Shown in pieces: positions 87 to 2,721 of a stretch of DNA of 49,206 bases. Positions within the stretch are counted from its first letter, which is position 1. Each line of letters opens with the position of its first letter. Origin of the DNA: Campylobacterota bacterium (GTDB lineage: Bacteria; Campylobacterota; Campylobacteria; Campylobacterales; Sulfurimonadaceae); the NCBI GenBank assembly GCA_040752835.1, contig JBFMGG010000011.1, forward strand, positions 1 through 49,206, read 5' to 3'. A program made the translations under genes and the position numbers. Under the pieces are notes generated by a model, which had not been told where the DNA came from, ran no database searches, and saw only the letters and a program-made list of their open reading frames with translations.

Positions 87-137
87 GAGGGTCAAAAATG
101 GAAATCAACCACTTTTTAAAGAGACCCAAGATTTTTT
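87..137. terminator. Bidirectional terminator between convergent genes
   Basis: GGGTC at 89-93 pairs with GACCC at 123-127, and inside it A-rich and TGG segments pair with CCA and T-rich segments, giving a long interrupted stem. A T run follows on the plus strand at 132-137. It lies between the left-edge gene and the end of dnaN, so it could stop transcription from both sides. Confidence 0.5.
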
Positions 138-1203
138 AGATGACGATCGGCATCACGATCGTTTTGAAGTTGTTTTCGCGCAAAACGAAAGGCTGGTTCG
201 ATTCGTTGGCTTCGAGGATAAAATCGGGGGTATTGATCTGCCCAAGGAAATCGAGGATGTAGCGGCTGTTGATCGCAAGGATGAAGGGGACGTCGAAGCC
301 GTTCTCAATCTCGACGGCGGTTTTGGCCTCGATGTTGTCGTCGCTGAGACTTTCGAACAAAATGGCGTCTTTCTGGAAAGTCAGTTTCAAGTCGTTCGAA
401 ATGGTCGTGATCTGCTTGATCGCGGTAACGATGGCGCTTTTGGGCAACGTAATGGTCCGCTGGCACTCTTTGGGGATGATACGGGTGTAATCGGGGAATT
501 TGCCGTTGATCAGTTTGGTAAAGAACAGCGAGTCTTCGGATTTGATGATGAGATGGGTATTGTCGTAGTAGATCTCGATGTTTTCGGAAAAGAGTTTCTG
601 GATTTCGATGATCGCTTTTTTCGGGACGATGATCGAGAGTTCGTGATCGCTCTGACCGTCGATGTGAACGAGGGCCAACCGACGGGTATCGGTCGAGACG
701 AAATTGATCTGGTTGGAGCGGATGTCGATCAGGGCTCCGTTGAGTTCGAATTTCGGATTGTTGGTGTCGGCTGCGGGGGTGATTTTTTTGAGCGATTCGA
801 TCAGGAGTTGGGAATTAATCGCGATGTTGGGTTTGTTCTCCGTCGAGGGGAAGGAGGGAAACTCACTGCTTTTGTATGTCGGGAGTTTGAAGTTGGAACG
901 TTTCTGACGGATGTGAAGCGTTTCACGTTCCAGTTCCAGTTCGATCTCCTCGTCTTTGAGGATCCGGACGATGTCGAGGAGTTTTTTACCGTTGGCGGTT
1001 ACGGAGCCGGGTTCTTCGACGGTGAGTGAATTGGTCTGCATGGAGAGTCCGATCTCGTAATCGGTCGCTTTGGCAAACAGGGTCCGTCCGTCCGTGCTCA
1101 GCAGGATATGGGAGGTGATTTGGGAAGTGTCTTTCTTTTCGAGAAAGGGCTGCAAGTGCAGCAATATGTTTTCGAGCACCGGTTTGTCAACGGTAATTTT
1201 CAT
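136..1203 (-). CDS. dnaN: DNA polymerase III subunit beta (sliding clamp)
   Basis: The 355-residue product is a full-length beta clamp. It begins MKITVDKPVLENILLHL and ends with the family tail IVMPIVI. Two clamps form a ring around DNA, hold the replicative polymerase on the template, and dock MutS, ligase and other partners. The length is normal for the family, which has three repeated domains of about 120 residues. The ATG at 1201-1203 has a GGAG ribosome site about six bases upstream. The gene lies downstream of dnaA on the same strand, separated by a 189-base gap that carries origin elements. The AT-rich tract and DnaA-trio-like motif lie just upstream of the dnaN ribosome site, so initiation and dnaN transcription may interfere. 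Identification is secure. Confidence 0.97.
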   Translation of the reverse strand: MKITVDKPVLENILLHLQPFLEKKDTSQITSHILLSTDGRTLFAKATDYEIGLSMQTNSLTVEEPGSVTANGKKLLDIVRILKDEEIELELERETLHIRQKRSNFKLPTYKSSEFPSFPSTENKPNIAINSQLLIESLKKITPAADTNNPKFELNGALIDIRSNQINFVSTDTRRLALVHIDGQSDHELSIIVPKKAIIEIQKLFSENIEIYYDNTHLIIKSEDSLFFTKLINGKFPDYTRIIPKECQRTITLPKSAIVTAIKQITTISNDLKLTFQKDAILFESLSDDNIEAKTAVEIENGFDVPFILAINSRYILDFLGQINTPDFILEANESNQPFVLRENNFKTIVMPIVI

Positions 1204-1392
1204 CCAAAGCTCCTTTTTTATATTTATAACATCAGTATCTAGTAGTTAGTAATAAGGGGGTGTGAATGTGTGAAAACGCTCCACAAACTCCTGTTTTCGG
1301 GAATGAACCGATGTGATCAAAAGGATCGCTTTCATTCACATCGATTCACATCTTGAATTATATCTTTTTTAAAACGGGTTGACAAACACAAA
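1204..1392. other. Origin segment between dnaA and dnaN (oriC2-like)
   Basis: This gap holds four copies of TTCAC, the core of epsilonproteobacterial DnaA boxes. Two are tandem and plus-oriented, ten bases apart (1335-1339 and 1345-1349, each within ATTCACAT). Two are minus-oriented, eight bases apart (1262-1266 and 1270-1274). Next to the minus pair come a run of G/C (1256-1260), trinucleotide repeats (1240-1255) and an AT-rich tract (about 1208-1238). Box, GC cluster, trinucleotides and AT tract in that order is the known layout of a bacterial unwinding element. I infer this is where strands open. No coding potential was seen. Confidence 0.75.
1240..1260 (-). other. DnaA-trio-like element with adjacent GC cluster
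   Basis: The plus strand reads TAG TAG T TAG TAA TAA from 1240 to 1255, then five G. Reading away from the nearest DnaA box (1262-1266), the plus strand is 3'-to-5' AAT AAT GAT T GAT GAT. This matches the 3'-(G/A)AT-5' trio that DnaA binds as single-stranded DNA in other bacteria. One extra T breaks the phase between the second and third repeats. The element sits between DnaA boxes and an AT-rich stretch, as expected. The function is inferred from layout only. Confidence 0.65.
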
Positions 1393-2721
1393 TTATTCGT
1401 CGGTTACGGTCGAGACTTTGTTCGAGAGTTCTTCGATCTTGATGCGGAAATCCTCGTCGTTTTTCATCAGCTCCTGGATTTTTTTCATCGTATGGCTGAC
1501 GGCGGTGTGATCTTTCATCCCGAAGTACTGTGCCAGCTGCGGCATTGAGTTGGGGGTGAGGGAACGGGAGAGATAGATGGCGATACGGCGCGCATAGACG
1601 ATGTTGCTGTTACGGCTTTTCGAGCGTATTTCGCTGGGTTTGACGTTGAGTTCTTTGGCCACCGTGTCCATGATGAGATCGATCGTAATGTTGCTCCGCT
1701 TTTCGGCCATTTGTTCTTTGAGGACGTTTCGTGCAAATTCGATGGTGATGTCTACCCCCATCAGCTGTGAATAGGCATTGAGTTTCGAGAGGATCCCCTC
1801 GATTTCACGGGTATTGTTTTCGATGATCGTGGCGACATAGTTGATAACGTCGCGGTCGAGTTTGACCCGGTTGATTTCACATTTTTTCTTGATGATCTCG
1901 ATTTTCGTCTCCAGTTCGGGAGGCTGGATATCGGCCACGAGGCCCCATTCGAAACGGCTGATGAGCCGTTCTTCGATCCCGCCGATCTTTTTGGGGTGTT
2001 TGTCCGAGGTGATGATGATCTGCTTGTTCTCGTTGCGAAGGGCTTCAAACGTATGGAAAAACTCTTCCTGAAGCTGGTTTTTGCCGCTCAGGAACTGGAT
2101 GTCGTCGATGAGAAGAAGGTCGCATTTACGGTATTTGTCCTTGAAACGGTCCATTGTTTTGTTGTTTAGGTGGCGGAGAAAATCGTTGAGAAACTGTTCG
2201 ACCGAGGTGTAGATGACGGTTTTGCCCTGGGAGAGCATGACGTTTCCGACCGATTGCATCAGGTGGGTTTTTCCCAGCCCGACGCCGCCGTAGATGAAAA
2301 GGGGGTTGTAGACGATGCCCGGTTTTTCGCTGACCGCCTTGGCCGAGATGTAGGCAAACTGGTTCGATCCCCCGATGACGAAGTTTTGAAACGTATAGGA
2401 GGGATTGAGGAGCGATCCGCCGCTGGGACGTTCCGCCGGGGCGGCTACGACGGGATTGTGGGCGGTTGCGGGAGTTGAGGTTTTGACGACGATCGAGACG
2501 GAGGGTCTGACGCCGGTTTTGATTTCAAACAGATGGGAAATTTTATCGGCAAATTTCGTGCGGATCCAGTTGGCGATCAGCGGATTGGGGGCGTGAAAAA
2601 CGGCCAGATTGCTTTTCGAATCGTTTTCGTTGAATTCAAGCTGCCGGATGTAACGCTGATAATCGATTTCGCTGATTTCATTTTTCAACGCGTTCAATAC
2701 TTGTTTGCCGATAGAGTTCAT
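1393..2721 (-). CDS. dnaA: Chromosomal replication initiator protein DnaA
   Basis: The 442-residue product has the DnaA layout: an N-terminal oligomerisation domain (1-75), a short linker, an AAA+ ATPase with Walker A at 145-152 (GGVGLGKT) and Walker B at 202-210 (LLLIDDIQF), and a C-terminal helix-turn-helix domain with the signature DHTAVSHTMKKI. It binds DnaA boxes, forms a filament on the trio strand and opens the origin. The start is the ATG at 2719-2721, preceded by AGGGA. A longer frame begins at 2784, but it would run through DnaA boxes in the upstream gap and its extra residues do not look like DnaA. DnaA-box cores flank the gene on both sides, so autoregulation is likely. ruvC diverges from it across a 108-base gap. 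Confidence 0.97.
   Translation of the reverse strand: MNSIGKQVLNALKNEISEIDYQRYIRQLEFNENDSKSNLAVFHAPNPLIANWIRTKFADKISHLFEIKTGVRPSVSIVVKTSTPATAHNPVVAAPAERPSGGSLLNPSYTFQNFVIGGSNQFAYISAKAVSEKPGIVYNPLFIYGGVGLGKTHLMQSVGNVMLSQGKTVIYTSVEQFLNDFLRHLNNKTMDRFKDKYRKCDLLLIDDIQFLSGKNQLQEEFFHTFEALRNENKQIIITSDKHPKKIGGIEERLISRFEWGLVADIQPPELETKIEIIKKKCEINRVKLDRDVINYVATIIENNTREIEGILSKLNAYSQLMGVDITIEFARNVLKEQMAEKRSNITIDLIMDTVAKELNVKPSEIRSKSRNSNIVYARRIAIYLSRSLTPNSMPQLAQYFGMKDHTAVSHTMKKIQELMKNDEDFRIKIEELSNKVSTVTDE

Follow-up and report, generated by a model that had tools for sequence, protein, structure and literature searches.

How strict is the three-base step of DnaA along its origin strand? The question is raised by the dnaA-dnaN intergenic region of a Campylobacterota draft genome (11 contigs, 2.13 Mb), where one additional base breaks the phase of a run of DnaA-trios. 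The stretch of DNA analysed here (49,206 nucleotides, hereafter the window) is contig 11 of this genome, whose nearest named relatives are Sulfuricurvum (Sulfurimonadaceae, Campylobacterota). In the window, dnaA (1393-2721, minus strand, 442 aa) was recognised by a phmmer match to the B. subtilis DnaA of the BUS cryo-EM entry 8btg (E 8e-102), and dnaN (136-1203, minus strand) by its ORF and by gene order in relatives. The intergenic region between them, oriC2, spans 1204-1392 (minus strand), as assigned from the ORFs and the dnaA-dnaN order in relatives. At the contig edge, the 3' end of a plus-strand reading frame (positions 1-80) converges on dnaN. In relatives of the class gyrB usually follows dnaN; a contig break or a local rearrangement may account for the difference.

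Read 5' to 3' on the minus strand, the elements of oriC2 are GTTTTCACA, ACATTCACA, CCCCC, TTA TTA CTA, A, CTA CTA, GATACTGATGTTATAAATATAAAAAAGGAG and the dnaN start. The first two are tandem DnaA boxes that are conserved in the family, the outer one at 1269-1277 and the DUE-proximal one at 1261-1269, and they share one base (1269). The first-pass annotation had recognised this pair, but the positions it gave, 1262 and 1270, fall one base inside the boxes. The 5-bp spacer, or 'GC-rich' module (1256-1260), leads to trios 1-3 (1247-1255), which are in register with the boxes. The extra base at 1246 (A on the minus strand, T on the plus strand) moves the register by +1, and trios 4-5 (1240-1245) follow in the shifted register. 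The AT-rich rest of the DUE (1215-1239) was delimited on the same strand by a duplex stability scan; no other 40-bp duplex in the 49-kb window is as unstable as 1215-1254. The plus-strand reading 3'-AAT-AAT-GAT-T-GAT-GAT-5' (1255-1240) is thus letter for letter as first described, and the boxes, CCCCC, trios and AT-rich tract (to about 1215) do follow one another in the order claimed from Bacillus. Chance does not explain the trio motif, which was matched once in the window versus not at all in 100 shuffles. A search of the full 2.13-Mb genome that tolerated two mismatches also gave a single match, as did the reversed control pattern.

Further boxes were predicted by sequence scan. Two DUE-distal boxes of opposite orientation, TCATTCACA (1332-1340, plus strand) and CGATTCACA (1342-1350, plus strand), lie in the same gap. 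An oriC1 candidate upstream of dnaA (2735-2822) has boxes at 2735-2743, 2747-2755, 2791-2799 and 2814-2822 on the minus strand and at about 2803-2811 on the plus strand. By these matches, predicted box clusters flank dnaA (2735-2822 and 1261-1350) with the DUE downstream, in keeping with the bipartite oriC1-dnaA-oriC2 layout known from the class (PMC5043019).

The region carries the marks of a BUS. The published definition of DnaA-trios asks for at least three consecutive 3'-NAN-5' trios (PMC8287927), and three are found in 3'-AAT-AAT-GAT at 1255-1247. The boxes point at the trios from a distance of 5 bp to trio 1, where up to 16 bp is expected, an easily melted AT-rich tract (1215-1254) lies behind the trios, and DnaA has the trio-capturing ISM residues when aligned to B. 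subtilis. What departs from the model origins is the register: these have all trios in a single one, a property outside the published search criterion (which requires three trios only), whereas trios 4-5 are offset by +1 both in the window and in 79 of 122 family origins.

The incC (oriC2) BUS of B. subtilis likewise has tandem boxes facing the trios, a short spacer, trios on one strand and an AT-rich DUE behind them, and there a DnaA oligomer is loaded from the boxes (PMC6669920, PMC10721633). However, B. subtilis keeps six trios in a single register, compared to five with +1 in slot 4 in the window, where the boxes follow the Campylobacterota consensus (core TTCAC). The oriC2 of H. pylori (ts1/ts2 boxes, GC-rich spacer, DnaA-trio, AT-rich tract) shares module order and phylum with the window; its opening needs the trio and not the GC sequence, and the spacer seems to set the distance (PMC8235120). 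H. pylori-type trios, CTA-CTA-CTG-TTA-CTA, are in phase, unlike those of the window. Those of locus L231, which we take to be Sulfurimonas denitrificans DSM 1251, differ from the window in the same way (CTA-CTA-CTA-ATA-CTA, in phase). The oriC2 of S. denitrificans is from the same family and lies in the same gap, and its DUE was mapped by P1 and the trio noted (PMC5043019). The eTrio of Thermotoga maritima oriC is similar in that three tandem TAG repeats are required for ssDUE binding (PMC10316083), but it lies away from the box-proximal end, acts by ssDUE recruitment and has no register slip described.

In most relatives the tract is found about 40-50 bp upstream of dnaN, as would suit a promoter or leader that serves dnaN expression and not origin opening. 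We consider this very improbable. In four Campylobacterota (S. denitrificans, A. butzleri, W. succinogenes and H. pylori) the DUE has been mapped, each time to the gap that follows dnaA on its downstream side (PMC5043019, PMC8235120), H. pylori retains the tract though the next gene there is not dnaN, and trio mutations abolish opening in H. pylori (PMC8235120).

To see how the register varies, we compared the dnaA-dnaN gaps of 41 Sulfuricurvum genomes, other Sulfurimonadaceae and the rest of the phylum. Boxes, a mostly 5-bp spacer and trios were found throughout the Sulfurimonadaceae sample. None of the 41 congeners lacks the trio, and 121 of the 122 family origins have it, which upholds the DnaA-trio reading against the condition, no trio conservation in relatives, that was to refute it. 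The 122 distinct origins comprise 79 with four bases in the fourth slot, 42 in phase and one unreadable, L134, the sole origin that matches neither pattern; five of the 122 were classed by eye (one trio degenerate or a first trio starting with A). Within Sulfuricurvum, 26 origins are shifted and 15 are in phase. A separate pattern scan of 147 genomes that are at least 90% complete gave 79 shifted and 34 in-phase matches, two of the latter away from dnaA, leaving 32 at the dnaA-dnaN gap. The alignment of relatives that had been proposed as a check therefore shows the extra base to be real. Its identity varies: the plus strand has T there in 24 of the 26 shifted Sulfuricurvum, and other bases are found elsewhere. 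What is conserved is thus the length and not the T first noted. The same holds for the GC run, which is true of Sulfuricurvum; among relatives the family alignment shows a conserved length of 5 bp and a variable composition.

As the window comes from a draft genome in 11 contigs, a sequencing or assembly error had to be considered. The relatives already refute it, and its probability is negligible: 79 of the 122 family origins, which are independent of one another, carry the +1, some of them in single-contig genomes. Among those that carry it is a 2,574,824-bp chromosome contig (L016), presumably that of S. kujiense DSM 16994.

The Sulfurimonadaceae were monophyletic in a DnaA+DnaN tree, on which the register state requires 11 parsimony changes, compared to about 35 (minimum 28) with shuffled labels. 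Collapsing nodes with support below 0.95 leaves 10 changes, and below 0.99 leaves 7. The register has switched at least 10 times within Sulfurimonadaceae, and all classified shifts fall between trio 3 and trio 5. This means that the phase shift, although present as the first-pass annotation had it, is not the unusual one-off that it seemed; it is a recurrent register switch in slot 4. Outside the family, readable trio tracts are in phase nearly throughout (e.g., CTA-CTA-CTA-ATA-CTA). The only clear exception is L192 (family f2), whose dnaA-dnaN gap reads CTA-CTA-TTT-a-CTA-CTA with +1 after trio 3, apparently an independent slip. Shifts in L155, L168 and L200, from other families, were ambiguous and not counted as clear +1; L155 and L168 also fit an in-phase reading if the spacer is 5 bp and the first trios are degenerate. 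Trio tracts in Campylobacteraceae are degenerate, and the trio of C. jejuni has been termed so (PMC6052347). Seven Campylobacteraceae-like loci of family f3 (L170, L171, L176, L177 and L188-L190) have one to three recognisable trios left, with TTA-TTA-TTA alone in one subgroup.

Next, we asked whether the slip is compensated elsewhere in the origin or in DnaA. Of the 116 family origins scored, 104 have 5 bp between box and trio 1, namely 73 of the 78 shifted and 31 of the 38 in-phase ones. As this spacing is equal in both classes, the register slip is uncompensated, and a +1 offset by a shorter box-trio spacer is ruled out. The DnaA protein is also much the same on both sides of a switch. Sulfuricurvum sister species that differ in register have DnaAs that are 96-98% identical, and most of the differences lie in domains I-II, not in the AAA+ ssDNA-binding region. 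Their trio tracts are one base apart, with no more than a single additional substitution within a trio. Eight ISM positions were compared. E175, N179, L182 and L185 of the window DnaA align with E183, N187, I190 and I193 of B. subtilis, and N187, K194, K214 and E220 with N196, R202, K222 and E228. E183, N187, N196, K222 and E228 (B. subtilis numbering) are conserved in shifted and in-phase classes, while the equivalents of I190, I193 and R202 are conservative replacements in the window and more variable in relatives. Trio-contacting residues are thus conserved, or vary alike, in both classes, and no covariation of register with DnaA ssDNA-binding residues was visible at the eight residues checked. 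Second dnaA copies occur in two genomes. Sulfuricurvum G001 has a second full-length DnaA (443 aa, 65% identical; L254:3019-4350, contig C4 at about 1,737,500), which adjoins a serine-recombinase-like gene and a WYL-like regulator and apparently sits on a mobile island; no trio tract was found around it. The second copy in G040 (C9) is broken.

The reading that we think probable is that the region is the BUS of a bipartite Sulfuricurvum oriC, in which trios 1-3 are in register, an extra linker base is tolerated and trios 4-5 are captured nonetheless. The cryo-EM structure from B. subtilis shows two bases per trio captured between adjacent DnaA protomers and the third pointing away; trios 1-3 are essential there (PMC10721633). 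By analogy, two DnaA molecules on the box pair would load a DnaA oligomer onto the plus strand at 3'-AAT-AAT-GAT, each pocket between adjacent protomers capturing two trio bases and leaving the third free. Trios 1-3 would be required in register with the boxes, but the free linker after trio 3 could be two bases instead of one, so that the oligomer would step 3-3-4-3 nucleotides with trios 4 and 5 still captured. The extra base would lie in this uncaptured linker, and DnaA itself probably reads trios 4-5 in shifted origins. Two observations count against this reading. With B. subtilis trios in vitro, unwinding is slowed when one base is deleted and recovers when three are (PMC6669920), an argument that register matters, and S. 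denitrificans, the sole family member with a P1-mapped DUE, is in phase as read from L231.

If DnaA read trios 1-3 alone, the shift could be neutral drift, with trios 4-5 retained through inertia or merely as an AT-leaning start of the DUE. Such drift would account for every switch lying behind trio 3, for a register that toggles at least 10 times, and for trios 1-3 being the essential set in B. subtilis (PMC10721633). Column counts from 78 shifted origins argue otherwise. The T and A columns of trios 1-3 show 0 changes each and those of trios 4-5 show 0, 0, 0 and 1, compared to 8 and 12 changes in the two slot-4 linker columns, up to 21 in spacer columns and up to 28 in upstream columns; as the shifted class is defined by T-A after the shift, these counts are partly circular. 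The conservation of T-A in trios 4-5 is nevertheless real, since the classification rule leaves out only one of the 122 origins. As the T-A pairs of trios 4-5 have stayed as invariant as those of trios 1-3 while adjacent bases changed often, we regard drift as unlikely.

The linker itself is not free of pattern. In all 78 shifted origins the two bases at the start of slot 4 include a C (G on the trio strand), being AC in 28 origins, CA in 20, CT in 11, TC in 6, CG in 6, CC in 5 and GC in 2; slot 4 opens with a base other than C in 14 of 38 in-phase origins. This rule may partly be due to descent by insertion into an ancestral CTA. It is also compatible with a more specific proposal, which we put forward tentatively: a modular DnaA oligomer with a rigid three-trio core, a hinge of 3-4 nt and a second captured trio pair, whose fourth pocket would need a reachable G without a fixed position. 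If so, the trinucleotide step would be strict over the first three trios only.

Register would be irrelevant if trios 4-5 were read by something other than the DnaA oligomer anchored at the boxes, such as a second DnaA unit, a helicase loader or an HP1021-type response regulator. There are precedents: B. subtilis DnaD is reported to recognise one specific origin strand (PMC10201434), and the C. jejuni regulator Cj1509 binds oriC (PMC6052347). We consider a separate reader improbable, and somewhat more so than drift. No HP1021-like box (TGTTWCW) was found in the dnaA-dnaN gap, trios 4-5 keep the DnaA-trio consensus itself, and in almost every readable tract outside the family they share the phase of trios 1-3. 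Capture of trios 4-5 by the same DnaA oligomer, across a tolerated extra base, thus remains our preferred reading.

DnaA-trios have been published before in Campylobacterota, including S. denitrificans (PMC5043019) and H. pylori (PMC8235120). By sequence comparison, the slipped register described here is a real, conserved variant of the element. No report of a conserved slip was found in the literature searched, whose scope did not extend to supplementary alignments or to the original 2016 trio paper (by Richardson et al., reportedly the first on trios). Origin-finding rules that count contiguous trios only would undercount the trios in shifted origins. Tests of the three-base step of DnaA have so far used artificial mutants of Bacillus and H. 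pylori origins. Sulfurimonadaceae offer a natural experiment, with repeated switching at one place and pairs of species whose DnaA is nearly identical and whose tracts are one base apart. The pattern in the family distinguishes trios 1-3, for which register is required, from the later trios, for which it is not, and the strictness of the DnaA three-base step thereby becomes directly testable.
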